A stretch of DNA of 38,460 nucleotides from Gloeophyllum trabeum ATCC 11539 (taxonomy: Eukaryota > Basidiomycota > Agaricomycetes > Gloeophyllales > Gloeophyllaceae). Where the stretch lies: assembly GCF_000344685.1 (NCBI RefSeq), contig NW_006920425.1:102041-140500 (forward strand), written 5' to 3'. The translations under genes were made by a program, and so were the position numbers. The notes under the pieces are model-generated. The model ran no database searches and was not told where the DNA came from. It saw only the letters and a list, made by a program, of their open reading frames with translations. Numbering within the stretch: position 1 is the stretch's first letter; every line of letters begins with the position of its first letter. Shown piece after piece: positions 2,879-34,500 of this stretch.

Positions 2879-4172
2879 ATGGATCCTCAGACTCGCAACA
2901 AAAGTCAGTTGCTTATCCCCCCGTCGTATGCCTCTTCGTTATGCGTTGCTGAATCGTTTCTTCCTCTAGAAATTGTCGATCTCACCGAGCAAAAGCTGAC
3001 CACCCTCGGTTTCTTGGGCCTCAGTGAGTTTCTCTCGTTGTTACACGCACACGTTCATCTCGCTCACTCATGATTGTCCGTCCGCTTCGTAGATGCCGTC
3101 CAAGGAGTCAAGAATCTGGTCGAGCAAGTCAGGGCAGACCCGGAGAATCTTGGCAGTAAGTCCTTCTCCCCCTTCATCCGCCTCCCTTCCCTCTTCGTCT
3201 ACTGTTATTTCTTGGTGTGCGGTTGTCAGTTCCCGCGTGCTCACATTTCCGTTTTGCATTCTCACTTCCAGGTCGAGCTGTTGAGGCGCAAGTACGCCCC
3301 CCAAACTTCCGCTCAAGGAGCTCCCCAGGCCTCTCCTAGGTCTCCTAGGTCTCCGACCTTTCCAGGTTCCCCGTCCTGAGCGACTCCGATACCCACTTCA
3401 CTCGGCTCAGTACCAGCTCGTCTGCCACGACGGTCGTCGCTCCCGACCTGATGTCTCAGTACGAGATCAACTTTTATTACCACGGCCTCTCGGAGGACCC
3501 TCCGAAGCTTATGTGGCGCTCTGACTTCGACATAACCCCCTTCCGCATGCCCAAAGTCGGAGAACGCTTCTTCAAGCCCTACCCCAAGCCTGCCTTCGGT
3601 ATATTCAACACGCGTCTCAACGACGTCTGGGACTACCGTCTCGCTCCTAGGATCCGTGCATAGCTCAAGACTCATGGTATCAAGTACTCGGCACTGAAGG
3701 CTGCCCGCTTCTTGACCGTCAACGAGGACGATGGGACAGAGACGTGGGGTCCCTTCACCGTTTGGATAGCCGTCCATCCCAACACCACCAAGGCTGCAGC
3801 TGTTCGCGACATCACTCCCGATATACTCCAGGTCCTCAACGATGCCCAGGTCTACGGTGCTGTCGTGGAGTGGTACGAGGGGACTGTCTAGAGGCTGGCT
3901 GCCCCCCCCCCCCTCTGACGGCCGTTGCGGATAATTCCGACCCCACCTTCGGCCTCAGCCATCCGTTCAACGCTGGCCTCGGGATCCCCAGAGCGTCCGA
4001 CGATGCGCAGGGCACCGTCGCTCTTCTGTTCCGCGAGGTCAAGACCAAGAACGACAAGCCCAGCGACAGGACCCCCGCCCCCACCAACAAGCACGTCGCC
4101 ACTCTCGACTCCACCACCCCCTATGACTTCGACGCTGCCAACCCTCTCAGCATCCTCATCTATATAATATAG
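2879..4172 (+). pseudogene. Degraded member of an Agaricomycete protein family
   Basis: A coding remnant can be followed in pieces: a start at 2879, short exons containing DLTEQKLTTLGFLGL and AVQGVKNLVEQVRADPENLG, then a long stretch with YEINFYYHGLSEDPPKL, GPFTVWIAVHPNTT and GTVALLFREVKTKN...TNKHVATLD. Related proteins occur widely in mushroom genomes, I believe, without a known function; the TNKHVA segment is loosely reminiscent of the His region of trypsin-like folds, but I do not claim that. Breaks: an in-frame TAG at 3661-3663, a second at 3889-3891, and a frame change at a run of 12 C (3902-3913), after which the family reading resumes in another frame. The end near 4172 also looks premature. 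Sequencing error at the C run is possible but would not remove the two stops. Confidence 0.6.
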
Positions 4173-4419
4173 AATATTTAAATGAGCTGTACCAAGGACT
4201 ACACATGAACAGTCTCTGTTATGTAATTGAAGCTCCACTTGATAAGACATGTACATGTGTAAACCAAGGCCGTAAACTGACCTTAAACTGTGAGTAAACC
4301 GAAATCTAAACCGACGCTAAATTAAAACCGCCCTCAAACCGCCCATCGTGACTTCCCCTAATGCCTCATACTTGATCTTTTCCTGTCTAGTACACTACTA
4401 CCGGCCGCATATCATAGCA

Positions 4420-5454
4420 ATGCTCCAACTCCCCATAGAAATACACAACGAGATAGTCTTCCACTTCGTCTGGGACCGTCCAATCCGACGCCCACGGCCG
4501 AAGCCAAGGTGGCGCGACATCGAGCCCCTATCCCTAGTGTGTCGTGCATTCCGGCGCATGGTACTCGAGGCGTGGTTCCACACTCTCTGCATATGCAGGA
4601 GACAAGACTTGTCGATTGTCTCGCAATACTGGCCCGAGCTTCCCCAGTGGGTGAGGTGAGCTGCAGCACCTTATCTAACAATAATATTGCACGTTGTAAA
4701 CTCGACTGTGCGTCAGAGTATTCGTCTGCCTACACAATCTGCTGGTGGACTACGACGACGAATGGGACCTCGCGCGGTTCGTAAACCTTCGGGAAGTCGT
4801 CGTGCAGATGCTCCCGTTCTGGGACGTTATACCCTTCCCGTGTTTGGCCAACGTGCCGCCATCCGTGACCAAGCTTGACATGACGGGCATGGGCGAAATC
4901 GGACCGACAGACCTGGAGGCTATCGTCAAGCCGTTCCCTAACCTCCGCGTCCTACGACTGCAGCCCTACAGCACTTGGTGCGGGCTCTGCAACACGTTCA
5001 CGTCCTCGAGCTTTTCCTGCCCTGTGCCGTCCTCCCTCACTTATGAGGGTGGAGTCGGCTTACCGGTGAGTGCATGGCACTTACATACATCTTGTACTCC
5101 CCCCAATGTATCGATCTTATTCAGGCGCATTTCGCGCAATTCCTGCAGCCGCTGGAGGATCTTGAGACGCTCTACATAACGGCCAAGTATGACTTACTTT
5201 CAGACGAGGAAGCAAATCCGCTTCTCGAGATAGGTGAGGAGAACAAAACCATGTGGAGCGGTGAATGCCGTGATTGCATGCAGAGATTGTACCCAGACGA
5301 TTCCTTCCGAGAGGACTGGGTTGCCAAGAAGAAAACGCCTGCCATACACCTGCCGGCATTGAAGAGGGTAGAATGGATATTCTTGTCGGGAGACGCTTTT
5401 GCCAACGAGACCGGTGACAAGTCCCATTTCCGGCCCAATCCCCTACACCTATAG
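4420..5454 (+). CDS. F-box/LRR-like protein
   Basis: Exons 4420-4655, 4717-5065 and 5125-5454 join in frame to 304 residues. The N-terminus (LPIEIHNEIVFHF...LSLVCRAFRRMVLEAWFHTL) fits the fungal F-box pattern of Leu-Pro followed by a Leu-x-x-Val-Cys-Arg-x-Phe segment, which in this family recruits the Skp1-cullin ubiquitin ligase. The rest (NLREVVVQML, PNLRVLRLQP, LEDLETLYI, LPALKRVEWIFLSGD) looks like irregular leucine-rich repeats that could bind a target. Such genes are expanded in basidiomycetes and targets are generally unknown. The start was chosen because it places the F-box at residue 3. It is convergent with the kinase gene downstream and unrelated to the F-box pair at 14-25 kb. A further 3' exon cannot be excluded. 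Confidence 0.7.
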
Positions 5455-11319: not shown

Positions 11320-13243
11320 ATGAGCTATACGCCTATCAGTGAGATTGAACTCGTAAGACCCTTTGAACCCGTCATTGCAGTTTCACCGACGTTCTTTTGC
11401 TCAGATATACAGACGTGTATCGGACACGTTTAATTCCGGAGTCACCCTTCCTCTGGCCTACCGGCGAAGGCAGCTTCTTCAAGTAGCCAGGATGATTCAG
11501 GAAAACGAAAAGGCCCTCGAGGGCGCGATCTACGCTGACCTGGGGAAGCCCAAGTTTGAGGCCATGCTGTCTGAGCTAGGCCCCGTGGCATCCGCCGCTC
11601 GGCAGGCGGCGGATAAGCTCGAAGAATGGACTAGGCCGCAGAAGCCAGAAGTAGAAGAATGGCGGAATACTTGGGATACCACGATTTACACGGTGCCCAA
11701 GGGAGTTGGCCTCATTATCTCGTGAGAGCTTTGCGCGTCTGCTTTTGTTCGCTGATCCTCAGATGATATAGTCCTTGGAACTACCCGTACATCATCTGCT
11801 TATGCCCATTAGTGGGTGCCATAGCTGCGGGATGCTCAGCTATTATCAAGCCATCAGAACTTGCGCCGGCCACATCTCAAATCCTTGCTCATCTCATCCC
11901 GAAATATCTGGACCCGAATGCCTATGCAGTGGTTCTCGGGGCTGTCCCCGAGACTTCTACTCTTCTCAATTTCAAATGGGACCATATCATGTACACCGGA
12001 GGGATCCGCGTGGGACGGATCGTGGCGGCTGCAGCTGCAAAGAACGTAACCTCATTGACTCTGGAGCTGGGCGGTAAATCTCCGGTGTTCGTTGATGGCG
12101 ATAACACGGACATAGATATCGCCGCAAAGCGGATACTTTATGGGAGGCAACAAAATTCAGGCCAGGTTCGTTTGCTTCCGCAGACTTTCTACTTGATTCA
12201 GAGAGACGAGATTGACATCATGGTTTGCTCAGCTCTGCGTCTCGCCCGACTACGTCCTCGTTCCCCGTCATAAGAAGGCTGCCCTCATCGCTGGGTTCGA
12301 GAAGGCGTACAAGGCTTTCTATCCCGATGGTCCCCTCGCGCCATCATCGCACATAGGCAAAATCGTCAACCCAGCTCACCACGCTCGCCTGGTCTCGCTC
12401 TTGGAGCGCACGAAAGGCAAGATTGTCCTTGGTGGGCAGACTGAAGGTGACAAGAGGCTCGCGCCGACGGTCGTAGACGATGTCAAGGAAGACGACGTCC
12501 TGATGGAAGAGTGAGCGGTTCATTGCGTGCATCGGAGTGCCCGCATACCAGCTGATGGTCTTCCAGTGAGATTTTCGGAGCAATTGTGCCCGTGATTGCT
12601 GTGGATGATGTCGAGCATGCCTTGCGCATCATCAGGGGACGGTGAGCATATATGCAGCTACGTGCATCAGAGAGCTAAGATCGTTCTATGGTACGAAGAC
12701 CATACCCCTTAGTTTCCTATTGCTTCACTGAGAGCGAAGAGACAAAGCAAAAATGTAAGTGAAACGCCGAGTATCGCGTTATTATGTTGCGGCGAGTGGT
12801 GACGTTATATTACACAGTCCTCTCAAGGACCAACAGTGGCACTATGGTATTCAACGACACGTTCATGCAGCTCGCTGGTGCGTGATCCGGTCCACTGAAT
12901 TTGCCTGAATACCAATAAAACTGTTTCCAGTACACGAAATACCGTTCGGAGGCCATGGCGAATCTGGCTGTAAGTGCAATATTGCACTAGACGATCAAGG
13001 CACTCACGATTGGTATTTAGATGGCTCTTGGAACGGTAAATTTAGCTTCGACACATGGGTGCATAAGCGCGGGTCTATCAATGTGCCCATCGCGTGAGTT
13101 AAACTTCCACTGCCACATTAGAGGATGCTGACGTGTTTCTTGACAGCGCCGATCCTCATCTGGCGTTCCGATACCCGCCATACTCGGAAGATGCGTACAA
13201 TTTCTTGGCGGCAGCAGTGAGGCAACCAATTCCAGACGCTTGA
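11320..13243 (+). CDS. Aldehyde dehydrogenase, family 3 (fatty-aldehyde dehydrogenase type)
   Basis: Ten exons, 11320-11352, 11405-11721, 11772-12165, 12233-12510, 12567-12641, 12699-12754, 12818-12877, 12931-12969, 13021-13093 and 13147-13243, join to 473 residues with every junction in phase. The product oxidises aldehydes to acids using NAD(P)+. Visible family marks: WNYP (119-122), the cofactor Lys143 in IIKPSE, catalytic base Glu215 in LELGGKSP, nucleophile Cys250 in GQLCVSPDYVLVPR, DEIFGAIVPV, and PFGGHGESGYGSW near the C-terminus. Family 3 enzymes, such as yeast Hfd1, lack the long N-terminal extension of other classes, as here. I see no C-terminal membrane anchor. Fatty or aromatic aldehydes are likely substrates by family. 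An alternative acceptor at 11380 would add eight residues; the chosen one fits the family better. Confidence 0.9.
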
Positions 13244-14062: not shown

Positions 14063-15244
14063 ATGGCCTCCCTCATCGACCTCTTCCCGTACGACGTCAT
14101 TTTGTCAGTATTCATGTTTATGAATCTCAAATCTCTGATTATCTGCAGAGAAGTGAGTGACCGCCTTGATCATCCCGTGCCTCATTCCCGTCTGATAAAG
14201 GCGCATTGCGTAGGTCTGCAGGGGCTTCAAAGATCTAATTGATGCAGATTTGCGACTTCAGTACCATATTGCGCTCGACGCAGCTGGCATGGAAAATGGC
14301 CCTCCAAGTTGGATGGATATCAAGGAGCGCAAGGACCGCCTGCAGAGCTATGTATCACGGTGGCAAGGCTTTGTGTGGCAACAGGGGACGTTGCTTCCTC
14401 CTCTACCAGGCCCTATTCTTCATTGGGTAATCGACTCTGGCGTAATAGGTCGCTTTTACGACGCTGGCAACGGTGTTTACGGGATGCACTTTTCTCGTCT
14501 ACCTGCGCGTTCTAGGAATATCATTCAGAAGGGGTGGCAGATCGGAAACATCGGCCATAATGCGACAGCCTTCTGCCTGGATCCGTCGCAGGATCTTCTT
14601 GTTGTTGCGGAGGTGATTCCCGCCGGGTAGGTGTCTTAATTGTATCTCAACGATCAAATGGTAATTCACGCTGCCCGCCCAGAAATCCACAGGCAGCGCA
14701 GCAGAGCTTCTTATATATGCGAGGGTTAACGAACGGATGTGTCCACCCGTCCGCCTGTGCTGATATGTGGAAATTCGCCGCTCCGGCAGGGCCTGAAGTT
14801 GCGGATGGGTCCGTGTGGACCATCCGAGTTCTAGGACACCTGATTGGTATTTTGGTCAATGCAGACAAACCGGAGTTTATCGTATACGATTGGAAGAGCG
14901 ACCGGATTGTGATGGTATTTGTATTTCCTCTTTGGCCTAGTTGATGTAGTTCTAACATCATACCATGACAGTGGGTGTGGTCATCGAGTTTCCATATAGA
15001 CGGGTTCGTCTTTCTCAACGAAAGGTTCATCTTGCTCTCCATACCAAGCAGTCCAGGAAATCTGGATGTGTTCGACATGCATCATACGCCAACCGTGCGG
15101 ACGTTGCTAGATGACGTGGAATCCTTCTGCACTTTTGAATACCCTGAATCTCGCATGCCGGTGGTGTGTTGCATCGACTCCACCTCTGGCTGCACTTCCG
15201 GCGGGACTCTGGATGTGCCCTTCTTTCCAGCTCCTTCCAGCATA
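14063..15244 (+). pseudogene. F-box gene A, 5' part, cut by transposon
   Basis: Exons 14063-14152, 14214-14626, 14683-14914 and 14972-15244 encode the first 378 codons before the transposon. The F-box lies in LFPYDVILSVFMFMNLKSLIICREVCRGFKDLID, followed by LQYHIALDAAGM, as is common in polypore F-box proteins. Introns fall at the same places as in paralogue B (VICKE/VCH, GG or HG, IVM/WVW). The host frame ends at ATA (15242-15244), whose last two bases are the left TA target duplication. With the element present the frame runs on into it and stops at 15440-15442, giving a chimeric truncated protein. The rest of the gene is at 22088-22695; together they would encode 522 residues. Target of this F-box protein is unknown. 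An upstream in-frame ATG at 14027 would add 12 residues. Confidence 0.85.
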
Positions 15245-15255
15245 CACCGCCAAAG
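15245..15255 (+). repeat. Left terminal inverted repeat with TA duplication
   Basis: CACCGCCAAAG, the exact reverse complement of 22075-22085. The preceding TA (15243-15244) matches the TA after the right end (22086-22087) and is the presumed target-site duplication. Similarity between the two ends stops after 11 bases. Confidence 0.92.
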
Positions 15256-15697
15256 CAGACCCACTGTCATTTCACGTGGAGGCGTCATCGGCCACAGCCC
15301 CCAATTCCACATGTGGCAGAGATTCAGAGAAACTGGAAGCCACGGCAACCAGCCTCTCGTTCCACCTTGTCGCCAGTTCTACGTGTACTCCATGTGGCAT
15401 CGAAATCTCTCAGGAAGCTGTAAATTAGGTGTACTAATGTGAATACCACAAACCAGACATGTGGGTGTCGAGCTCGCTGAAACATGCAGGTCACCTCGTA
15501 ATCTGCCACCTCAGACATGCGGCGGTAACCTGGATAGCATATTGTAGTTACCACTGTGGCAGCAGAATAATAGACCAGATTTCAGTCTCGTCCCATTAAA
15601 CAAATGCACGTTCATTCCGCGGTAATATCAGATCGTTACTGTACACTCAGGTGGGATACAAAGGACAATGGAGAAGACACAAATAGCCCGCATATCG
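15256..15697. other. Left subterminal region of the transposon
   Basis: Non-coding part between the left end and the stop of the partner gene. It holds repeated CATGTGGC/CACGTGG-type motifs: CACGTGG at 15273-15279, CCACATGTGG at 15307-15316 and CATGTGGC at 15391-15398. Similar motifs recur at the right end and in the internal promoter, so they may be binding sites for an element-encoded protein. Confidence 0.5.
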
Positions 15698-17135
15698 CTA
15701 CACCTCATTGCCGACAACCTCGTCGACCTCTTGCTGGAAGTCATTCTCTTCCTGGTCCCCTTCAGCCCCCTCCGACTCAGCGAAGATACCATATGTCTTC
15801 CGGTCATCCTTCAGGATCGACTTCAATGCTCTACAACATTGCTAAGATCAACTGTCCGGGCGGCTAAAGAAACAGGAAGACATACCGGCTTATTTTCTTC
15901 TTATCCCCTCCAGCCAGCTCCCGTATGAGCTCGAGTCGACCGTCCATAGCAAACCAGTAGTCTGCATTCCCCCCAGGCTCATCATCATCTTCACCTGCTT
16001 GTGGGCTCTCATGACCAGGCGCAGCTTCGTGCCCATACTTCTCGATGTATACCTCTCTCTAAGTGCACGAAGAAAGAGTTAGAACCATGTTTAAGAGGAA
16101 ATCGGGTACTCACCATCACAGCAACACGGGTGCACAGCGCGGCAGTTACAGTATTCTTCGAAGTCGCTAGATTCTGAGCAAGCTTGTAGATATTTGTGCA
16201 TTTGGTCTTGTCTTTGTTTTTGATACTGGCTGCGATCTGAACAAAACACACATGAAGTGAGCAACATGACATCTGTTCGTATCCCAAGGTGAGAGGCTTA
16301 CCGCTTTCTTCCACTTCGACCGGAGCTGGGTCAAAGAGTACTGGATCTGACTCTGGACTTTGCTCCAGTCGGCCGGGTTCCGCTCGAGATCGCGCGGGAG
16401 TTCATGTTCTTGATATTTCTTCAAGAGACCCTTTTATCGGACTTCAGTACAGCCCTGAAGATCTTCAGTAAACTTACCTCTACATGGATCCGTGGAATGT
16501 CCCCTTTGTAGTGGGATATCTTAGCGGACAGTAGCGCCGCAAGCGCGTACTTGTCAATCGATTTCTGTTATGAAGTACCTTTCAGTGTCGCGCAGATGCA
16601 AACCAGACCTAACGCAAACCTTAAGGCTGTTCGATACAGCGTACAGCGGCTGTGCGGTCACAATCTTGTCGACTTGGTTGCGAAGGGCCTGTTGGCCGGC
16701 CCACAGGATGTAAAGTCGTTCAGAAAGACTGCGCTGATGGTAATGATGTATTGGCCACACTTATCGACACTAGATTCTGACAGAATATATCACACCCACC
16801 GCATTGAAGTCGTCACCTCGGTCTTGTTGCTCTTTCGTGAGCTTGAGCTTCTTAGAATACCGGTGCGCGAACTGTTGGAGGCGACCGGTGTCAGTCGTGC
16901 CACCTGTGGCACGGGGTTGAAGGATGCCCGGACTGAAAGAGATGGTGCCGGCCGGGTCATTGACAATGCTTGGGTCAATGTTCTCGTTGTTCCCTGTTAT
17001 TGAGCCCTCCTCGTTACCCTCTGCGAAGTCCGACTCATCATCGGCAGCACGATCACTGGCATTGTCCGTGCGTGCCCGCTTTCGCCGCAACGGAGATGAG
17101 ACGGGGCTGCTTTCAGGAGAATCGCCACCTGACAT
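15698..17135 (-). CDS. Transposon partner protein (364 residues), function unknown
   Basis: Seven exons on the minus strand, 17135-16800, 16733-16620, 16564-16478, 16430-16302, 16236-16114, 16058-15886 and 15830-15698, close in frame to 364 residues. The N-terminus is Ser/Pro-rich with a likely nuclear signal RRKRARTD (17-24) and an acidic segment; then RLQQFAHRYSKKLKLTKEQQ, a helical middle (SLSERLYILWAGQQALRNQVD, KYALAALLSAKISHYKG), YWFAMDGRLELIRELA and a C-terminal KSILKDDRKTYGIFAES. No enzyme motif is visible. I recall similar proteins encoded beside this transposase type in other mushroom genomes, which suggests an accessory or DNA-binding role like TnpA of Spm; that is inference. Divergent from the transposase, 275 bases apart. 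An alternative start at 17180 would add 15 residues. Confidence 0.8.
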
Positions 17136-17410
17136 CACGAATCGGAGCCGTCCAATGTGGGCTTCAGAAGCCGAGGGCATGTCGAAGTAAAACTGAAGTT
17201 GAAATTTCGTGACTGTTGAGAGGCGGAGGAAAGAGATGTTGCCACATGCAAGAGCGCGCCGCGCGGCTTTACAACTGCACACGATTGTGGCTTGGAGCTA
17301 TTGTCACACGCCACTGTCGTATTGACTTCGTGCATAACAGGACGGGCTCTGCCACAAGGTGTCGAAGTATTCTCTCTCTGAGTCAGGCTTGCCTCAACTC
17401 AGATATCAAA
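17136..17410. promoter_or_regulatory. Bidirectional promoter of the transposon
   Basis: A 275-base spacer between the divergent start codons must drive both genes. GCCACAT at 17241-17247 matches motifs in both subterminal regions of the element (15311-15317 and 15392-15398 as complement, and 21854-21860). I see no clear TATA box. Confidence 0.55.
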
Positions 17411-20400
17411 ATGCCCACTCAGGCAGGACCTGTACCTTCATGTAAGTAATTGGGACACCTACTTGGCAGTGAACAATAACTTACTCCTTCCAGATTTTGA
17501 AGAGTGTCTTGAGACAAAGAAAGTCCGCTGTAAAAAATGTGCCCTTTGGGTTTCACAGAATCGTCAGTGGATGGAACGCAAAAATTGGCCCGGCCATATC
17601 ACCACCCCGACTCACATTAAGAACGCAAAGAAGTATGATCAGCTTGAGGCTCAGCGAGACAAGATCCAGCAGCGGAATGCGCGCTACGAGGCTGAATTAC
17701 AAGCTCTTGAAGCGGGGAAGCACCCTTCGGCCCGGGCACTGGGGTCAGCACACATCAGTTCTCGCGAGAAGCCGGTGGGACCTGAGATGAGCAATATTAC
17801 TGCGTCCGAGGCACAGATGTGGGATGATGTCGAGATGGGTGCAGTGGACTTTGACTGTGGTGATGATCCCAAGGTGTCGGAGAGAGAGCGGTTAGACCGC
17901 GCCATCGCATCCCTATGGACCGCGACAAATGATTTCAGCCTTACGGATTCGGTCGAGGTGGACAGCGCAGCTCGGCAATGGGAAGAGTTTGATGCACAAG
18001 AAGATATACTAACAGACATATTGCAGAACATAAGTAAGGACCACATCTCATCAATATGATTGTGACTTACAGTTGCTATAGTGGGCGAGGTCGAAGAGCT
18101 CAGCGTCGATGACATACGTGAACGGCAATTCAGTGACTTCACTGGTAGCTCACCTGAGTCAGAATGGTTTCCGTATGGCTCTAAAACGGTGAGGAAGACC
18201 TTGTGAAGATATCAAACTTGAATAGCTAATTGATATTATTACCAATGAGATGTTCCTCTTGGACATGTTGGAAAACCTACCCCGTATGCGCGTCTCGGAT
18301 ACCTTAATGCGAGTCATCATTTGGGTTCTCAAGGAGACGGGTGCAAGGGATGTGCCATCGTTCGATGCTCTGCGCAAAATGCAGGAGGGGATGCGTGAGC
18401 GCTGTGGCGTCCCTACGCATCAGCATCGGACATCAAGAGGAAACATATTCTATTACAATGATGTCCGTACCTTGATCGCAAAGGTAAAATTTCTTCTCTC
18501 TTGTAGAAGGACCAATCTGACGTCCCGCTCCCACAGGACTGGTCAACGCTTGCCGTTCGGAAGCATATGCATCTATATCCGGTGATACCAAGTGGTCCGA
18601 TTAGCGAAGTTTGGCATGCAGAGAAATTTCGGAAAGAGCTTGATCTTGATATCCTAAGTCCAATGTATGATGCCGGCCAGGATCATCACTACTACGTCAA
18701 TGAGTTTGCTCGGATGAAGACTGGTCAATTCGTTGTGCCTATACGATGGCTAGAAAGGGAAGAGGATAGTCAAATCGTCGCTGACGCATATGCAGTGGCG
18801 TGCAATGAGAATGTATGTTCACCTTACTCTCCCGCTTCATGTTGCAACCTGAGAGAATATCAGGGAACCTACAAGATTGATGATAGCAGAACAATCATTA
18901 TTGAAACCAAACACCTTGACGCAGACTTTTTGGATTTGATAGACCAAAATCTGGTCCCCATTTGTGATCGTACGTCATAGTCATGGGAATGCACACTCAC
19001 ACTGATTTTCCTTATCCAGAGGCCACGATAGATGCCGGACACAGGGCACGGATGCCTAATCCTCTCCGCAAAATTGCGGCAGGAGATCCGCTCTACACGA
19101 GTTTCGTCGACTATTGGTCTGACGATGTCTCTGGCAATAGAACAAAGTCATACAACAAGCATGTAAATGCCTGTGTTGTGCATCGCAATCTACCCCGGCG
19201 TCTGCTTCAGCAGGAGGTACATGTTCACTTCATCTCAACTTCACAAAATGCGAGTGCGCCAGAGCAATTTCGGGCATTTAAGGAAACCGTCGAGTATGTT
19301 TAGAGCAGAATGATGTGCTTGAGACTCCCTCATCAAGCTCTTACAGGGCAACTCACAAGGAACCAGTGCAAGTTCGAGATGCCATAACCGGTCAAGATTT
19401 GCGGTTTCGACTCTTCACAAACACAGGTCCTGGGGATAATCCACTACAAAGTGAAATGTGTGGTCACATCGGCGGGAAGGGGAATTATTACTGTAGAAAA
19501 TGCTTTGCCGGTGGTACTCAAGAATTCAAGCAGACCAATGAAGGGTATGAAAGTCTTTTCCACGTATGTAACTGATGCTATCTCGACCTCAAATGAGTGA
19601 CCATTAAGTTTGTACAGGTTGGTGTCCCGCGGACAGCTTTAGCCACCGTAGCAGAAGTAGAAAAGCAGCTGGAAGCAGCTTGTACAGGAATAGCCGAGCG
19701 TGTCAAGGAACTCCAGACATCAACAGGGGTCAAGGATGGCTACACCCAGCCATGGATCGAGAAAATCATTGATCGTGCTCGGGAAATGAGAAAGGATTCC
19801 CGACGCAGTCAAGAAAGCATTAGAGAGGAGCTAATGGACTGGGTACGAGCCCGCCGGCATGATATTATAAATCCAGTTCTCACAATGCAAGGTCGGTTGG
19901 CATTTCCCTTTGAGATTCCGAGTGGAGGCTAATTAATATTCTGAAATATCCAGCGTTTGATCCTGCAAAGGATACACCCATTGAGATCTTGCATACGATA
20001 CTCCTCGGGATTGTGAAGTATGTCTGGCACGGAACGCACACCAGCTGGTCGGATGAACAGAAAAAGACATATGCTATTCGGCTACAGTCGACTGACGCGA
20101 AGGGACTGTCGATCCACGCAATACGCGCTGATTACTTGATGCAGTACGCCAACTCGCTGATCGGACGGCAGCTGAAGACAGTTGCACAAGTCAGTGTCTT
20201 CGCAGTCCATGATCTCGTCGATCCTACTTGCTTCTCGCTTTGGAAGGCTTGCGGTGAACTTATTGCGTTGCTTTGGTATCCCGAAATTCTCCATTTGGAT
20301 GACTACCTTGTACGCAAATGTTTCTGTGCTGATCAGTGATAATCAGTCTGAATTGATGCTTTGCACACAGCACGATCTCGAAATTGCCGTCGCAAATGTA

Positions 20401-21695
20401 TTAGATATTTTTGCAGAGATCGAGCCGTCAAAGATCATAACAAAGATCAAGTTGCACCTTTTATCTCATATCAAGGACGATGTCCGACGCCTTGGACCAA
20501 TCCTGGGGGAAATGGATGAGATATTCGAGTGCTACAATGGAGTCTTCCGTAACTGTTCGGTATTCTCAAACCATTTAGCACCTAGCCGGGACATTGCCTT
20601 AGATCTGTCAGCCCAGGAGAGCTTCAAGCATCGAGTGATGGGGGGTTTCTGGCCGTCTGTAGCTGGAGACGGTCGGTGGGAGTGTGCCGGGCCAAAGGTG
20701 CTGGATTACCTACATAAACACCCTATCTTACAGAGACACCTCGGATGGTCCTCTGGTGAAGAACCTGCTGTCGGTATGTTGTTCCCCGCAAGAAATTTTA
20801 TTCATCGGTGATAGCTCAGTCCTTAGGCTCCGTCAAACTTGCTTCCCACCTGAAGGGGACACGACAACGTCCGACTGCAAGATGGGCAGATACCACAGCA
20901 TCTAAGGCTATCAATAGTGGATCTGTGACCACAAAACCGTCATCCCGTTGGACAATCGGCAAATCTGTTATATCAAAGTCTCAAGAAAGCTGTCTTTGCG
21001 GGGCTTGGGTCATTGCCGAATGCCCGATTTCCGTATGTGATCGAGCCCAGCTCCTTATTTTCTTGTCTGATGGCTATACAGGCCCCAGGAGAAAGGATGA
21101 TTGGCCGCATTGCCGAGATTCTTGAGGAAGAAGGAAGTGGTCAGGTACTTGTCACAATCGAGCGGTTTGAAGTGGGTGAGACACGTGATATAACTTTCGG
21201 CATGCCGACTCTTTCACGACGATGCGGCGAGCCAACATTCATAAGTATATCTCCATCTGTATGTAAATCACTTATATCTCTTGGTTCCAGGACTAACCAC
21301 TCGACTTGCAGACGGTCGAATTCTGTATTAACGTGCAGCACAACTGCCAGAGGGAGAGATGTGCTGCGACTGGACAGAGAGCCAAGAAACAGGAACGCCT
21401 GGAGACCAACATCATGGAGGCTGTCCTAGCACACAGCTCCGACGACCATTTTCTAATCAATACCCATTCCCTGCACAACCCTCAGCTACTCCGTCAGGTC
21501 CTTCCTCCTCACCTCACCCGACCAATGCCAAGATTTGATGAGCACAGGAACCGCAAGGAGAAGCATGCAGAGCTGGCGGCGAAGCTTCGGGCAGACACTG
21601 TTTCAAAGCGGAAGAAGGCGGAGGAGGCTAAGCTTCAGAAGCAGCGGGAGGAGGCCGTCGGAGGGCAAAGTTCGAAGAAACGGAAAAAGGTGTAG
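17411..21695 (+). CDS. Tnp2/CMC-like transposase candidate (1202 residues)
   Basis: Fourteen exons join without a stop: 17411-17441, 17494-18033, 18082-18188, 18226-18483, 18537-18812, 18864-18969, 19020-19293, 19347-19563, 19618-19891, 19954-20309, 20371-20773, 20827-21032, 21082-21258, 21312-21695. A zinc-finger-like C-x2-C-x18-H-x5-H lies at residues 23-51 (VRCKKC...GHITTPTH). The core has [15 protein letters not shown] followed by YYCRKC (559-583), resembling the GD...C-x2-C block of Tnp2 transposases, then [19 protein letters not shown] (702-720) and [11 protein letters not shown]. The C-terminus has [14 protein letters not shown] (1079 on) and a Lys/Arg-rich tail ending KKRKKV. The family is very common in mushroom genomes. 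It would cut and paste the element; which Asp/Glu residues are catalytic I cannot assign. Confidence 0.83.
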
Positions 21696-22074
21696 TTCTG
21701 GTGTACAGGACAGTGCCGGTGCTATTATTTTGTCATATACAGATAGCTCGAGTAGTATATGATATATATGGTACTCATATGGCTACAGTGTGGATAGTGG
21801 CCTTAGTGAAGCTGTATAGGGAACTCGCCTAAAGGTGGACCATGCACGTGGTGGCCACATAGTGACTGGCTATGACTACCGTGAACCGAACTTCTAGGGG
21901 CTGGATTGGATGCTCACGGAAAGAAGGTGAGCGCAGGTGGTGGCTACGTGGACTCGCTGTATAGAATCTATATACATAAAATAGCTATGTAACGGCTGAG
22001 AACAATTTTACCTCAAGGCGGCGTGGAGATATAAATCGCACGCGTCCCCGTCATCTCGTGTCTGGCTTATGATA
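21696..22074. other. Right subterminal region of the transposon
   Basis: Non-coding. It holds two copies of a 13-base motif, GTGGTGGCCACAT at 21848-21860 and GTGGTGGCTACGT at 21937-21949, 89 bases apart. TATAAA at 22030-22035 points outward, about 50 bases from the end, and could promote transcription into the cut F-box gene. Confidence 0.5.
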
Positions 22075-22085
22075 CTTTGGCGGTG
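22075..22085 (-). repeat. Right terminal inverted repeat with TA duplication
   Basis: CTTTGGCGGTG, the exact complement of the left end. TA follows at 22086-22087, and the F-box coding sequence resumes at 22088. Confidence 0.92.
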
Positions 22086-22087
22086 TA

Positions 22088-22695
22088 GTGTACGTCGTCA
22101 GACTTGAATTTGACCATACCCGATTCGGCCAGCATCCGGACTTCTGGCGCGATCCTGTAGGCCCCATCACGCACTTCATACCAGCCTCGGTCATCCTTTC
22201 ACGGCTGCAGCGGGGAAACCACTGGACATGGTCCGAATGGGGTCCACAGGAGACGCATTTGGAAGGCAACATGATAGTACCCGTGGGCACCGTGAAGAAC
22301 GCCCAGAGGTTTGCCTTCCTTACTCATACCCTGATGGGACATCCCGTACTTGAAGTGTACGACTTCGGTGGATCGCGGAGGCCCGAGGTCGCGGCGACGG
22401 AAGCCCAAAATGTCTCGAGCATGCTTCAGAGATACAGTGTCGAGTGGCCGATGCCCGAAGGTCACCACCAGCGAACTGAAGTTCTCCCGTGCGGTCTGCA
22501 ATACACGAGAAAGGCTGCGATCATGGCTGGATTCTCAGATTGGGGACAAATTGGTGCCGGAGTGGACGTTGTCACATGCGATGACGGTGTCGTGTTCGTG
22601 CGGGTGAGTTCTCTCGTAGTGATTTGGAACCCTGCTGAATTGTCTTTCAGGAGGACCCTGCCAGAGGGTTTGATTTCCGTGCCGTTACGCTATGA
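22088..22695 (+). pseudogene. F-box gene A, 3' part, separated by transposon
   Basis: Coding sequence resumes directly after the right TA at GTG (22088-22090) as VYVVRLEFDHTRF and runs to 22603, with a final exon at 22651-22695 (EDPARGFDFRAVTL, stop TGA). It matches the C-terminal third of paralogue B: VISSRLEHGIIWDW against VILSRLQRGNHWTW, VLTVYDF against VLEVYDF, and the last intron is in the same place. There is no stop or frameshift, so decay has not set in. Without the element this would be codons 379 to the stop of a 522-residue protein. It has no natural ATG of its own near the start, so it is probably not expressed as a useful protein. Confidence 0.85.
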
Positions 22696-23540
22696 ACGGG
22701 TCTTCTTCCAAACACTGTGCACTGTTGTCTGAGTCACCCGCTTCCATGCGACCTAAGGCTCCGAGTGTGATTGTTGTATAGAACATCTCCCTGGCATTTC
22801 ATCCACATTGTAGATATTTCACATTGCATCAATAGAGTCTCCAAAGAGAGCCGCATACACTCGCTGCTCTGGGTATTCTGAAAAAAACCGTCAATGTACC
22901 GCCCTACAGTGTGCTCTAATAAATTGTGAATACTGACTTACACCAGGCCGCTGTGCAGCGACTGTACACTACTGGTACTGTAAGTATGGTCCGAGCCTCA
23001 GGCGAGGCGGATCTGACAGATCTGAATCATCTGATCATGAAGAACTTGTCAATCAATGCGTTCCTTCGGGATTTCCCGGCCGTGTTCACCTGTGGTTCGC
23101 CTGAGGTTCGAGCGACGATATTGCAACCATACAATATTATAATATTGTACGGGGACATCATTGCGATACTAAGCGTCGTCATCGAGTCAAATCTAAGGCT
23201 AGGTGCGTGTAACTTATTTTATGGCATTTCTGTGCAAAATTGTCGCAATTAGGGTTTGTGGCATCACCGTGCGCGTGTGCGGTCGAATCGTGGCTGCGAC
23301 GGACGACCCACGATGAACCTCGTACAATATTAATCCCGCGGCAGAATACGTACGCTTACTTTTTTGCATGCTTTGCGACAATAAGAATACCTTCGGTTAA
23401 CCAAGACATCATGCATCATGCACCAGGAGCATCGGCACGGCACTGCGATTGGGCGGAGCAACGAAGTGTGGCTTGGACCAACTGCATTGACCTTCTCGGG
23501 ACGCTTTGAAAGCTTGGCCCTGAATACGTGTGGCACTGCT
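22696..23540. other. Intergenic region with a perfect palindrome
   Basis: About 850 bases between the two F-box genes. An open frame at 22926-23252 has no recognisable features. The only structure I see is a 20-base perfect palindrome at 23130-23149. Confidence 0.4.
23130..23149. repeat. 20-base perfect palindrome
   Basis: TACAATATTATAATATTGTA reads the same on both strands. Possibly a scar of a small mobile element or a protein-binding dyad; no flanking duplication was found. Confidence 0.6.
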
Positions 23541-23602: not shown

Positions 23603-25433
23603 ATGTCGCCCGGTCACGGCGCATTCACCGAACTGCCCGTCGAGGTCATTACATTGATCCTTGTTCATGTTGACTACAGGATGCTTCTAATCTGCAAAGA
23701 AGTAAGTGACTTATTACTGTGGCTGCGTATCTTGCAAGGCTCACGCCCTTATATGGAACGTCTGACCTTTAGGTCTGTCATTTCCTGCGAAGCATAATCA
23801 ACAATGATCAGCTTTTGAGCTACCGCATCGACCTAGCAGCTGCTAATATGGAAGATGGTATGGCCTGTCAGATGAATACGGCTGAACGTTATCGCCGCCT
23901 TCGTCAGTATGTCTCAGGCTGGGATAACCTGAAGGGCCTCTCAGAGTCGCAAAATCAACGCTGGCTGGCACCTCTACCTGGGAATACATGGTTGAGTGCC
24001 TGGGAAGTACAGGCAGGGATTCTAGGTCGGAGCTACCATGCTGAAGACGGGACCTATGGCGTGGTTTTTGATCAACTGCCTGCGATCGCGAGAAATATCC
24101 CTCATCGTCAATGGCACATTGGAACCGTCGGCCACAACCTCGCGGTTTTCACTATGGAACCATCAGAAGACCTGCTTGCTACTGTGCATCATGGTACGTC
24201 AGAAACGCGAGTGCATAATGTAATATGTACGATCCATATATTAATGAGAAGTGAGAAATTAGGACTAGTGAACTTCGTCTGAGACGGCTCTCAGATGGAG
24301 GTCCCCACCCCTCTGCTGCGCTTCCTGTGCTGAATCTTGATATATTTCACACCTTCCATCAAGACTTCACGGTCAAGATCTCTGGAGATTTCATCGGCGT
24401 TTCCGCCGGCAGGTGGTCTGAGTTTATATTGTGGAGCTGGAAGACTTCAACCATCGTCGGGGTACGTCCGTCCTCTATGACCTACTATAAACATATCACT
24501 GATTGTCTGTCTGTGGCAGTGGGTCTCAGGTCGCCTCGCAGATGGGTTCATTTTATTAGATCAGCGGTTTATCTTGCTGTCTGAGCGCTCATATCCCGCA
24601 AGTCTGAGAGTTTATGATCTCAATCATCTCCCACGGGAATGCGCATGCTTGGACAGCCTGGCAGTTTTCTGTGTTTTCGAATATCCAGAGTCTTGTCCCA
24701 TTTATAACTTCCAGATACACACTTCTTCCCCTCTCGACTGGACCCCGAACAGAGATTTAGATCCCCCTTTCTTTTCGGCGCGCGACGACAGGTTCATCGT
24801 CGTCACATTCCATTTCGAGGAAGATATTTGGGCAAGAAGTCGCGGTGAACGTCACCCTGAAGACCGCACTCATTTTATATCATATTCTGTTATCTCCTCG
24901 CGTCTAGAGCACGGAATAATCTGGGATTGGAACTCCTGGGGTGTAGAAGGAACTTGCATGACGCTGGGTTTATCCGGGAGTCTGTCCTGGAAAAAGGTAA
25001 AAAACGGGCCTCGCGTCGCTTTTTGGGCGGGCGATAGCTCGACCGGACCCGTCCTGACGGTCTACGACTTCACAAGAGGCCAGAGACGTCGACCTGTCGT
25101 GGATGAAGAACAGGACGGTATTCAGACTTGCACCCAGAGGTTCCACCGAGTAAACTGGATGTTTCCCTACCAGCAGCCTGTAGATCTGTGGACGGACTTA
25201 CAATACACGAGCAGGACTGTTACACTGGAAGGAATTGAAGCTGCGCTCATCGGGCCGTCACACATCGCCACTTATGAAGACGGTATTGTTATTCGTGTGG
25301 TAAGCTGTCTCATTGCCGTTCACGTAGGGCCATTGCTCATGCGTGTATCCTTCAGCGCCAGGCTTATTATGATGAACTTGGCCACATATTTGGCTACGAC
25401 ATGCATGAAAAGTTCTTGGTTCTTACACTCTGA
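23603..25433 (+). CDS. F-box protein, gene B (intact paralogue)
   Basis: Exons 23603-23701, 23773-24193, 24295-24461, 24520-25299 and 25356-25433 join to 514 residues. The F-box is near the start (ELPVEVITLILVHVDYRMLLICKEVCHFLRSIINND), followed by LLSYRIDLAAANMEDG. The remainder (WHIGTVGHNLAVFTMEPSEDLL, FILLDQRFILLSE, FCVFEYPES, VLTVYDFTRG) looks like a beta-propeller-like or repeat region of the kind seen in mushroom F-box families. It likely acts as a substrate adaptor for an SCF ubiquitin ligase; the substrate is unknown. It is a tandem paralogue of gene A, with the same four intron positions and promoter block, and serves as the reference for the empty insertion site of the transposon. 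Confidence 0.82.
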
Positions 25434-28525: not shown

Positions 28526-31500
28526 ATGGGTCGCGGCTCTTTTGGTCTGGCATCTCGTCGGGCAAGAGGTTCATTCCAGCGAGGCGGATATCGCGGAGGT
28601 TCGTTCCGAGGAGGCAGAGGTCGCGGACGCGGTCGCTCAGGCGGCGCCAGCGCGGAAGGAAGCGCACCCACGAGAGATGAGGAAGGCACACAGCTAGAGG
28701 AGCGTTTTGAGCAAGTCAGGGTGAACGATGAGGTGGACGAAAAGCTCGGGTTCGCGAGAGTGCAGGATGGACCGAAGAGGGAGGGGTGGTTGGTTAACAT
28801 GCATCCGGTGAGAATAACGTGTCCATCCTGTCATGGCACGCACACTGACTATTGAAACGATACAGACATTGGTTAAAGATCCTGATTGGCCTGGAGGGAA
28901 AGCGGGCGTGGACTACTACTTTATTCAAGACGACGGGGACCTCTTCAAGTGCACATTCCTCTATGAACCGTATTTCTGCGTCGCTTGCAAGGTGAGCTCA
29001 CATTCTGATGCTACCCGTACTGGGGCTAAACTTCGCACAGAATGGGACAGAGACAATGGTGGAAGAGTGGCTGCTGAAGAAATACGAAGGCGTCATTTGC
29101 CGGATCACCCGCGAACGCAAAGAGGACCTCCAAATGCCCAACCATCTCATGGGTCACCGCCGACTATTCCTACAACTTCACTTTCGCAACGTCTCCGATC
29201 TGCTCAGCGTTCGGCGAGACATTGTGCCTCTGGCCCTGGCCAATGGTGCCAAACGGGATGCCGTAGACGCGTACGCCGAGGTAGTCAATGCTACCGCCGA
29301 GAACGCCGGTATGCAGATCGAACTCGAAGACGAGGACATGCGTGGGTCCAGTCGGGAGAAGGATCCGCGCGAGGCTATCATCGACGTGCGCGAGTACGAC
29401 GTCCCGTACTACCTGCGGGTCGCCATCGACAACGAGATTCGAGTTGGTCTGTGGTACGCGGTGACGTTCACTGCGGGCCAGCCATCCTTCAAGCACATTG
29501 CGGAGAGGGTGAAGCGTGCCGACCCGGTCGTCATGGCGTACGATATAGAGACAACCAAGGCGCCGCTGAAATTCCCTGATCAGGCCATTGACCAGGTTAT
29601 GATGATCTCGTACATGGTGGACGGTCAAGGCTACTTGATCACGAATCGGGAGATCGTCAGCGAGGATATCGAGGACTTCGAATATACGCCCAAGGAGGGC
29701 TACGAAGGCCCATTCACAATCTTCAACGAGCCAGACGAAGTGAGTCGCTCCACCGCTAACCGAGTATGCTACCTACTGACTTCGCACTTCAGGCGGCCGC
29801 TATCACGCGTTTCTTCCAGCACATCCAAGAAGTCAAGCCGACTGTTATGGCAACATTCAACGGCGACTTCTTCGATTTTCCATTCCTATGCGCACGCTCT
29901 AAGGTCCACGGTATTGACATGTTCCTGGAGACTGGTTTCGCAATAGACTCGGAAGACGAGTTCAAGAGCAAGACTTGCGTCCACATGGACTGCTTCCGCT
30001 GGGTCAAGCGGGACTCATACCTGCCCCAAGGTAGTCAAGGTTTGAAAGCCGTCACGACGGCGAAGCTGGGCTATGACCCTATCGAACTTGACCCCGAACT
30101 CATGACACCGTAAGTTTGTCAAAATCAATAAAGCAGCAGAGGAGGGAGCTAACTATATCCTTTGCAAGATATGCTATGGAGCAGCCGCAAGTTCTGGCAC
30201 AATATTCCGTGTCCGATGCCGTTGCCACATATTATCTGTACATGAAATACGTTCATCCCTTCATATTCTCACTTTGCAACATCATTCCGCTGAAACCCGA
30301 CGAAGTCTTGCGGAAAGGCAGCGGCACTCTCTGCGAAACTCTGCTCATGGTACGTCATTTGTCCTTCACGGTCAGGGTTACCAATGCTTAAGTGGCGCAG
30401 GTGGAAGCCTACAGAGGGCACATCATTATGCCCAACAGGCACGAAGAGGCTCAAGGGAATATGTACGAAGGTCATCTGCTCGCCTCGGAGACGTATGTCG
30501 GTGGTCACGTCGAAGCCCTTGAAGCTGGAGTATTCCGAAGTGATATCGCTACGCATTTTAAGATTGAACCGTCGGCCGCTCAGAAGGTATGATGAAACTG
30601 CGAATATCATCTGTATAGATGTTGATAACAAATTCCTCAGCTGATCGACGAACTGGATGCTGCTCTCATGTTCTGCATCGTCAAGGAGTCTAAAGCGTCC
30701 ATGGAGGACGTTACGAATTATGACGAAGTCAAGCAGCAGATTCAATCAGCTCTGGAAGAGATGCGAGATAATCCTTTGCGCCATGACAAACCCCTGATCT
30801 ACCATTTGGATGTCGCGGCGATGTATCCAAATATCATGTTGTCGAACCGACTTCAACCCGACTCCGTCGTCGATGAGTCCGTCTGCGCTGTTTGTGACTA
30901 TAATCGACCAGGGAAGCAATGCGATCGGCGTATGACATGGGCTTGGAGGGGAGAGTTTTTCCCGGCGCACCGAGACGAATACAATATGATCAGACATGCC
31001 TTGAATCAGGAGACGTTCCTATCCAAGAGACCTGGAGGGCCCCATCGACGATTCACGGACTTGTCTGAGTCAGAGCAGACTGCGCTGATCCACAAGCGGC
31101 TCGGTGACTATTCGCGCAAAGTGTATAAGAAGATGAAGGACACCAAGGTCGAGAATCGCGAATCTATCATATGCCAACGCGAAAACCCTTTCTATATCGA
31201 TACCGTCCGAACGTTCCGAGATCGGCGATACGAATACAAGGGTCTTCACAAGACTTGGAAGAAGAATCTCGATAGCTTCGTGTCGGAGGGACGTACTATC
31301 GCTGAGGTGGAAGAGGCGAAGAAGATGATAGTGCTCTACGACTCCCTCCAGCTTGCCCACAAGTGCATCCTGAACTCCTTCTACGGCTACGTCATGAGGA
31401 AAGGCGCTCGCTGGCACTCCATGGAGATGGCTGGTATCACATGTTTGACGGGGGCGACTATTATTCAGATGGCTCGGCAGCTCGTTGAGCAGCTTGGACG

Positions 31501-34500
31501 TCCCCTCGAATTGGATACTGACGGTATCTGGTGCATGCTGCCCGGAATATTTCCGGAGAACTTCAAGTTCAAACTGAAGAACGGCAAGGCTATCGCCTTC
31601 TCGTACCCTTGTACCATGCTCAATCACCTCGTGCACGACAAGTTCACGAATCATCAATACCACGACCTTGATCCAGTAACGGGTCAATATACGATACATA
31701 GCGAGAACTCCATCTTTTTCGAACTCGACGGGCCTTATAAGGCCATGATCCTTCCCTCCTCGAAAGAAGAGGACAAATTGCTGAAGAAGCGGTACGCGGT
31801 ATTCAATGACGATGGGTCGCTGGCGGAATTGAAGGGCTTCGAGGTTAAGCGACGTGGCGAATTGCAGCTAATCAAGATTTTTCAGTCGCAAATCTTTGAG
31901 AAGTTCCTTCTAGGATCTACGACCGAGGAGTGTTACGCTGCGGTTGCTGAAGTCGCTGACCGATGGCTGGATGTTCTCTTCAGCAGGGCGGAGAATATGC
32001 CGGACAATGAGCTCTTCGACCTTATCGCCGAGAACCGAAGCATGTCGAAAACATTGGCTGAATACGGCGGACAGAAGTCGACATCGATTAGTACTGCGAA
32101 ACGTCTTGCAGAATTCCTGGGCGATCAGATGGTGAAAGACAAAGGCTTAGCCTGCAAGTTCATTATATCAGCTCGTCCCATGGGTGCACCAGTCACGGAA
32201 CGAGCTATTCCGGTCGCGATCTTTTCCGCCGAAGAGAGCGTCAAGAGGACGTATTTGCGGAAGTGGCTGAAAGATAACAGCTTGGCCAACTTCGATATTC
32301 GCTCCATCTTGGATTGGGAATATTACATCGAACGCTTAGGATCCGTTATCCAGAAGCTGATCACCATCCCGGCTGCGATGCAGAAGGTCGCCAATCCTGT
32401 TCCTCGTATTCACCATCCCGACTGGCTGCATCGGCGTGTAGTAGCTATGGACGATAAATTTCGGCAGCACAAAGTCACTGACTTCTTCAAGCGCGCTACT
32501 GAGGAAGATAAGATGACGCAAGATTCTGTGGATGACATGGAGGATTTCGGCAATCGCAGACCGGACGGACAGCTGCGCATCAAGCCAAACAACCGCAAGG
32601 CTGCCCCGAGGAATGAAGAGTCACAAGAAGAAGTCCAAACTCAAGAACCCGCGGAGGAGAAACTGCCGAACCCGTCAGAGAATTATCGTGAATGGCTTCG
32701 AGTAATGAACTCTAGATGGCGAAGAAGGCGGGCGGCGCGCTTCGGTGATCCCAACTCAACTGTTGTGCCTGCAATGTTCAGAGGCGGCCGAGTAAGGACC
32801 GTGCACCGCTGGGACATAGTGCAATTGCGACCAAGCAAGGTCCCGGGACGATACACTCTATGGCTGTCCATCGATTCTGAACTCGTTGCGATCCCGCTCC
32901 GTGTTCCGCGCGAGTTCTACATTCATTTTAGGAGCCCACCGAAGCAGGATAAATTCCAAGTTGATCAATACTTCTGCGAGCAAGTAGTCAAACATTTACC
33001 TCGCGGACAGCCTTGCGTCAATTTATACAAAATCTCAGTCCGCGAAGATATTTATCAAGATGGACATGACCACTTTGTAGACCTCACGATAGATCCCAAC
33101 GTGGACAGTGTCTTCGAGTTGCAGGTAAGCTTCTGGCAAGTCGCCGATGTCTCATGCTGATGAGAAGTTATGAGGTCCCACTAGTAGTGCGCGCTCTCCT
33201 TAAATTGGGGAAGACTTGTGTCATGGACGACAAGACTATGACACTGAATAGAGCAGAGAGTGCCGGAGTGGACCTCCATCAGCTCACCCATGCCGAACCT
33301 TCCATGACACGCGGTAAATATCTCAACGGTGGCACGGGAGGCAAATACATATTCGTCTACCACGCTTGCTCGAACAACGCACCAGTGCATGTTTTTGCCG
33401 TCTTCCATCCTGACGGCTCCGTCAAGCTGCACATTGTCGACCCAGCGACCCGCCGACAAGGGATTCCCCGGATGCAGGAATTGTACAATGAACTACTGTC
33501 CAGACATCGGGCAGCGAACGGCGCGAGCTACTCGGTGCAATATCAGGAGATGCTCACTTTCGATACGACCTATCACAGCAGTGATGTGACCGCTCTGAAA
33601 GCAGTATCTCGGGAACTTGGATTACTCGAAGGCCGATCGTACACTGTAGTTATCTCGTCCATGAAAGAGCAAATATATTTCGACAGCCATGTCCCGAGGC
33701 TAGCGAAGTTCCCCGTCTTGTCCATGTCCAAGGCGAAGGGTCCCCATAGCCTGGATGTGTTCCCATGGCAAGCGAACGTTGCGCAGAAGATGCTCAGCCG
33801 GTACCTGTCACTGGGTCCATGGCTTGATCGGACGATATCTCTCGCGGACTACTACGACGTACCAGTCGGCCATATCGAAGGCGACTTGCCTCTCTATGTT
33901 GCTGATCTCGAATTCGCCAGGCGTCTCCTCAAAGAAGACATGGTTTTATGGTGGTCTCCTGGGGACCGGCCCGACCTTGGAGGAATTGAAGAGGACAAGC
34001 GACAGACTCAGGAAATCGCCAGCACGGAGTTCCTGTCGCCTGGGTGCTATGTCAACGTCTGCTTGGAGATCGCGGTTCGTAACCTGGCGGTGAACTCAGT
34101 GTTGCACTCTGTCGTAGTCAACGAGCTGGAAGGCAGCGGCGGAGCAACCGCGTTCGACTCAGTCTCACACACTCTGGACGAATACACCGGCCGCGATGCT
34201 CCTCGGGATCTCACCCTAGGCGAATCAAATGTCTCTCCGAAGACCTTGAACGTCCTGAAGTCTATGATCAAAACCTGGCTTCTGGACAAAATTCAAGGTA
34301 ACTTCGAGAGCCCCGCTACTCTTGCTATTGATCACTTCTGGAGGTGGATTAGCTCGAACGCATCGAACATGTATGACGGAAGTATCCACAGATTTGTCCA
34401 CAGTCTTATGCGGAAGACCTTCATACAACTTCTGGCTGAATTCAAGCGGCTCGGGTCTCATGTCGTCTACGCAGACTTCAGCCGTATCCTGTTGGTGACT

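Follow-up and report, generated by a model that had tools for sequence, protein, structure and literature searches.

The 38,460-nucleotide stretch of Gloeophyllum trabeum ATCC 11539 analysed here (the window; contig NW_006920425.1, positions 102,041 to 140,500, forward strand) contains a 6,841-bp transposon at positions 15245-22085, which interrupts an F-box gene. We propose that it is a complete, apparently autonomous cut-and-paste element of the CMC/CMCT clade, with the dinucleotide TA as its target and its duplication, and we place the probability of this reading at about 93%. The clade comprises EnSpm/CACTA, Mirage, Chapaev, Transib and relatives. The element has 11-bp perfect inverted ends with a TA on each side, and carries two intact genes that diverge from a 230-base gap, one for a DDE transposase and one for an accessory protein. 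Its membership in a recently described kind, the TA-duplicating CMC transposons, is well proven. An earlier interpretation of the letters alone (the sequence-only reading) had described a two-gene element of 6.84 kb with exact 11-bp perfect ends at this place, and the recurrence of the same ends in relatives bears out that description. The parts of the element are as follows, in window positions.

15243-15244, no strand: left TA of the target-site duplication; empty sites known for a sister copy hold a single TA
15245-15255, + strand: left terminal inverted repeat, CACCGCCAAAG; recurs at C6, in diverged form in other copies
15256-15697, no strand: left subterminal region, CATGTGG at three sites in a motif scan
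15698-17180, - strand: accessory gene, 7 exons, 379 amino acids (aa), hand-built model
17181-17410, no strand: gap between the divergent start codons, putative shared promoter
17411-21695, + strand: gene of the CMC-type DDE transposase, 14 exons, 1,205 aa, hand-built model with family alignment
21696-22074, no strand: right subterminal region, without other DNA match in the genome
22075-22085, - strand: right terminal inverted repeat, CTTTGGCGGTG, from an inverted-repeat scan
22086-22087, no strand: right TA of the target-site duplication, from the same scan

The window reads TA-CACCGCCAAAG from 15243 through CTTTGGCGGTG-TA closing at 22087, and each repeat together with its TA makes up a perfect 13-nt inverted pair. 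Such a pair is unremarkable by itself, as a scan of the stretch returned 27 inverted pairs with at least three others of 11-12 nt perfect among the matches listed; the ends are therefore proven by their recurrence in relatives. By base composition about one occurrence of the 13-mer is expected in the 35.5-Mb genome, and five were found, two in the window and one each at C6, C10 and C12 (the window itself lies on contig C16).

Two protein searches of the same genome revealed an identical set of eight family loci, namely the window locus on C16, C6, C3, two on C11 (C11a and C11b), C9, C1 and C17. Paired TA-CAC...GTG-TA ends around both genes were found at seven of the eight loci. Five relatives match at 11/13 or better, and a relaxed search adds C17 with 10/13. 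At C11b a single end is seen, likewise next to a TA. The nearest relative, C6, reads TA CACCGCCAAAG...CTTCGGCGGTG TA, its second end being off by one base. Two end types occur in the family, CACC[GA]CC and CACGC[CA]CA. When loci were shuffled, a TACAC..GTGTA pair of at least 11/13 arose in 3 of 120 trials, and a looser scan of the ends gave three extra 11/13 pairs (two at C3, one at C11a), none of them enclosing the genes. The search of the same genome for other copies with the same ends, proposed in the sequence-only reading, thus agreed at C6 and at further relatives. The other perfect pairs of 11-12 nt in the stretch might suggest that an inverted repeat has arisen by chance on either side of ordinary host genes, but this reading is refuted by the recurrence, and with the transposase landmarks kept and the host exon cut exactly we consider it hardly credible.

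C3 and C11b have three blocks, 2.4 kb in all, in common at 97.9-99.0% identity, and no DNA match was found between the first two blocks. Of the transposase, C3 matches no residues before 458 and C11b none after 534. Judged from this near-identity of the two copies, the family was active in the past. The shared blocks are located at positions 5121-7378 of C3:20500-30400 and positions 3171-4835 of C11:1042000-1051900. The 13-mer at C10 was rejected as a family copy: its only partner, with two mismatches, lies 7.2 kb off and without a TA (9.9 kb examined), and no transposase match was found at that place. At C12 (positions 2972-4983 of the locus examined), TACACCGCCAAAG and CTGTGGCGGTGTA stand 2.0 kb apart, matching at 12/13 with a TA on both sides. 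The bases adjoining the end are unlike those of the family by eye, and the pair is possibly a short non-autonomous relative, or a product of chance.

As TA is its own reverse complement, an empty site is required to prove the duplication. The C3 copy is inserted in a dispersed repeat, copies of which without the insertion are found at C4 and C7. Comparison of the joined C3 flanks (200 bases on the left and 34 on the right) with the C4 site (C4:2675375-2675610) revealed a gapless alignment over 236/236 positions, 226 of them identical with one TA kept, compared to 201 and 203 if zero or two TAs are kept. The C7 site (C7:1658660-1658890) also holds a single TA at the point, with one 5-bp gap elsewhere, and a third, weaker match crosses the insertion point at C9:177723 (75%). 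It could be argued that the TA is part of the inverted repeat, giving 13-bp ends and no target duplication, as the repeat alone is undecisive with a self-complementary TA and none of the seven two-ended copies lacks either TA. However, the one-TA empty sites refute this for C3, and the F-box frame and the paralogue alignments require one TA at the window locus, making such 13-bp ends very improbable. The TA is therefore duplicated, as demonstrated by the one-TA empty sites of the C3 copy and the one-TA host frame of the window copy. The TA at both flanks had been taken as a two-base duplication from the window alone, and the single-TA empty sites sought among relatives were found in the C4 and C7 repeat copies for the C3 insertion. 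The repeat hosting C3 occurs at C4:2675375-2675610, C7:1658660-1658890, C13:1044700 and C9:177723, and it contains, 122 bp away from where the element inserted, another copy of the target stretch in diverged form.

The host exon provides the corresponding evidence at the window locus. Its two parts and the paralogue used for comparison are the following.

14969-15242, + strand: upstream part of the interrupted F-box exon, joins the downstream part in-frame
22088-22732, + strand: downstream part of the interrupted F-box exon, joins the upstream part in-frame
24514-25347, + strand (C16:126554-127387): host paralogue B, gapless at the insertion point

At its start, from 14063, the host gene matches the F-box family PF00646 above the cut-off with an E value of 1.7e-8, in agreement with the earlier claim of an insertion in an F-box gene. 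Removal of the element leaving one TA restores an open frame, as had been described, of 306 codons from stop to stop. Flanks joined with zero or two TAs likewise leave other frames open, the longest of 258 codons; open length is therefore weak evidence alone, and the paralogues decide. In a search of the genome with the joined host protein, the two host pieces match first and then the paralogues, with 38% identity at C16:126554-127387 and 36% at C16:48441-49100. All four paralogue alignments, two of which are weak, are gapless at the junction, with the nearest gaps at least 8 residues off. The gapless junction alignment to paralogue B reported before, PFFPAPSSIVYVV against PFFSARDDRFIVV, was reproduced, and the predicted junction of the window locus with one TA reads ...AGCATAGTGTACG... 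In addition, diverged paralogues of the host gene lie on the same contig (at C16:48441, and another 2 kb downstream), so loss of this F-box gene may be buffered.

The transposase gene model, hand-built from splice signals, has 13 GT-AG introns of 37-62 bases and no internal stop. The family alignment revealed that the motif W[SA]DDVS is kept in all eight copies and that DNP, CR[KR]C, [IV]LHT, HxLxH and FEC are kept in all seven copies covering them. The D, D and E acids of W[SA]DDVS, DNP and FEC are unchanged, their catalytic role being assigned by alignment. The motifs CR[KR]C, [IV]LHT and HxLxH all precede FEC and correspond to the C(2)C, the H(3-4)H and the extra H of CMCT. The clade definition lists three acids, two cysteines and three histidines, with C(2)C and H(3-4)H between the second D and the E, 5'-CA..TG-3' ends and a duplication of 2-5 bp (PMC12730594). 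As read from the alignment, the landmark set matches that of the CMCT clade, and the CAC..GTG ends and the TA duplication agree with it as well.

Profile comparisons were made to place the transposase within the clade, using a profile of seven copies (C11b was dropped as too short) and a Plavaka profile of nine of ten Plavaka proteins from the same genome (one dropped as too short). The window family scores 43.2 against Plavaka, whereas 60 column permutations reach 25.4 at best and the profile read in reverse gives 18.9; the match runs via the blocks LH, HxxxH and E. Against the first Tnp2 protein of the same genome the score is 27.3 (best of 60 permutations 22.1, reversed 23.8), via the second D and the CxxC block, and Plavaka itself scores 24.5 against this protein; the second Tnp2 piece gives 15.8. 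The profiles support kinship with Plavaka and point to a marginal kinship with Tnp2, the protein standing outside both PF18759 and PF02992. The assignment to the CMC type in the sequence-only reading is sustained by the catalytic landmarks, the CAC..GTG ends and the TA. Its description of the protein as Tnp2-like holds at the level of the clade and fails at the level of the family, as PF02992 is unmatched and the Tnp2 profiles reach 27.3 (23.8 reversed) and 15.8 against 43.2 for Plavaka.

Similar to Plavaka elements, which are CMCT elements of basidiomycetes, the window element has the H, HxxxH and E blocks, and in profile comparison it comes closest to Plavaka copies of this genome, via just these landmarks. 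PlavakaA is also reported to make 2-bp duplications (PMC12730594). A Plavaka element with unusual ends might thus be considered. However, PF18759 is not among the matches of the window transposase at E<=10, and none of its 44 match pieces in the genome falls inside the eight family loci. The ends differ as well, being TGT..ACA or CATCA..TGATG in Plavaka and CACC/CACG..GGTG/CGTG in the window family. A Plavaka origin is thus quite improbable. EnSpm/CACTA elements share the CAC...GTG ends, and the D and CxxC blocks through the marginal profile match, but differ in their 3-bp duplications compared to the 2-bp TA of the window family, and in PF02992 (Tnp2), which the window transposase does not match. 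The genome holds only two match pieces of PF02992, at C8 and C2.

The exons of the accessory gene lie at 17180-16800, 16733-16620, 16564-16478, 16430-16302, 16236-16114, 16058-15886 and 15830-15698. A search of the 379-aa protein against Pfam gave nothing above the cut-off, and against the Protein Data Bank (PDB) no match; a Dcc1 hit in Pfam (E 0.089) was below the cut-off and is not believed. The C6 protein is identical at 232/364 aligned residues. At each of the seven other loci an accessory relative lies at the expected place, on the same side and divergent from the transposase gene. Elsewhere than C6, direct profile matches are weak, with best E values of 7e-5 at C9, 7e-4 at C11b, 0.005 at C3, and 0.05 to 0.3 at C1, C11a and C17. 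The accessory pieces of C9 match those of C11a, C17 and C1 strongly (best pieces 2e-46, 2e-39 and 8e-33), those of C11b match C3, and the C9 and C11b pieces both match C6 (2e-5 and 1e-4). By these matches the second gene is traceable, at least in part, at all eight loci.

In the subterminal regions the motif CATGTGG was found, with sites in the window at 15307-15316 (palindromic), 15391 and 15458, and one interior site at 17242. The window copy has four hits in its 820 terminal bases against one in the 6-kb interior, the four hits being three sites, all on the left, with the palindrome read on both strands. Corresponding counts for termini and interior are 4 and 0 at C6, and 3 and 1 at C3. As the motif was picked after viewing the window copy and C6, C3 is the only independent test among the three copies scanned; none of 500 shuffles reached its count of 3 in the 820 terminal bp. 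CATGTGG is therefore a candidate binding site for either protein. Three other motifs were rejected: in C3 the 8-mer ACATGTGG does not hold up and ACGTGG does not convince, and ATGTGGC also has 4 occurrences in the C6 interior.

Both genes show clear signs of selection against change. Comparison to C6 gave rates of nonsynonymous (dN) and synonymous (dS) substitution of 0.16 and 2.28 for the transposase (dN/dS about 0.07, over 1,073/1,205 codons), and of 0.21 and 1.68 for the accessory gene (about 0.13, over 292/379 codons); the exact ratios are uncertain, since the removal of badly aligned codons biases dN downwards and dS approaches saturation. Low ratios would also be expected for an old immobile insertion with a transposase kept for a host task, and the subfamily otherwise consists of C6 only, at 69%. 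Such domestication is nevertheless unlikely, as both ends are perfect at 11/11, the second gene is kept as well, and the host exon is open over 306 codons, which would hardly persist after long residence. A recent insertion in the window, as claimed in the sequence-only reading, is plausible, its two grounds being the perfect ends and the open host frame.

Several observations weigh against a complete and mobile CMC/CMCT transposon at this locus. The empty sites are those of C3, which has about 54% of catalytic-domain residues in common with the window copy, and their right-hand comparison covers 34 bases only. The window element lacks a close second copy: its DNA identity to C6 is 69% along the transposase gene, and nothing else in the genome matches its outermost 456 and 392 bases at the DNA level, so that the mobility of the window copy itself is presumed. 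A plain protein search of the genome finds the accessory gene only in the window and at C6, and its direct matches to four of the other seven loci, at E 0.005 to 0.3, are weak. No credible match of the transposase was found in Pfam, where DivIC alone appeared at E<=10 (E 5, below the cut-off and not believed). Likewise, a 596-residue part gave no credible match among solved structures, a LysR-type regulator (E 0.33) being taken as chance. Finally, the score against the first Tnp2 protein is marginal next to its reversed control, and the second Tnp2 piece amounts to no match.

Reasoning by analogy to other CMC elements, we propose a mechanism for the presumably still active element. The 1,205-aa transposase would bind the CAC...GTG ends and excise the element. 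The ends would then be joined to a 2-nt staggered cut at TA, the repair of which would duplicate the TA. The 379-aa protein is a conserved second component, whose most likely task would be that of a partner at the ends, in DNA binding or in assembly. Analogues of this role are TnpA in En/Spm and the Myb-like protein in Harbinger, and EnSpm/CACTA elements have a two-gene layout, TnpA/TnpD, similar to that of the window element.

The closest published elements are CNEST and ESTA, which the window element adjoins in kind and to which it is likened by their descriptions. Pce1 of Phanerochaete is another TA-flanked element, for which a supporting paper was not found, and mushroom genomes probably hold similar unannotated proteins. 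TA-duplicating CMC transposons were described in papers of 2025 and 2026 (PMC12730594, PMC12810828). CNEST of Cryptococcus neoformans is about 7.2 kb long, has 33-bp repeats beginning CACGG, makes TA duplications in new insertions, was shown mobile in a trap assay, and encodes the CMC transposase CNAG_05910 in a gene of about 4.4 kb; it was classed as a new superfamily (PMC12810828). Similar to CNEST, the window element has a CMC-type DDE transposase in a gene of 4.3 kb, CAC ends, a TA duplication and a length of 6.84 kb, and its transposase was missed by a library (Repbase for CNEST, Pfam here). It differs in its 11-bp CACCG repeats, and in its second gene, of which the accessible part of the CNEST description makes no mention. 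ESTA elements are EnSpm-like with TA duplications and include three families with a TET/JBP gene, a type assigned to rust fungi (PMC12730594). The CMCT transposase landmarks and the TA duplication are common to ESTA and the window element, and the TET/JBP gene of the three families sets them apart. Beyond the CNEST and ESTA papers, a TA-duplicating CMC element in mushroom-type fungi was not found among the matches listed in the open-licence literature, nor were end sequences for such elements found in the accessible parts of PMC8290104, PMC9674265 and PMC8955403.

What is new here is the proof, from a sister copy's empty sites, that TA is duplicated, together with the eight-locus family, the conserved second gene, and the placement beside CNEST and ESTA. 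The locus and its relatives provide an end-to-end anatomy of such elements in another fungus, which covers empty sites, ends of two types and the second gene. They also illustrate that a transposase without a Pfam family can escape domain-based annotation. Since the element is intact and has disrupted a gene in nature, it can be tested directly whether it moves and whether it needs the second protein. More tentatively, and at somewhat less than even odds, the family might represent a separate CMC lineage, a two-component and TA-targeting one in which an obligate partner of no known family accompanies the DDE transposase; CNEST may hold such a partner in the approximately 2.8 kb outside its transposase gene.

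Other genes of the window surround the insertion. Upstream, positions 11767-12270 contain part of an aldehyde dehydrogenase gene. Downstream, positions 28996-35652 contain the gene for the catalytic subunit of DNA polymerase epsilon, with exonuclease, POL2 thumb, DUF1744 and zinc fingers.

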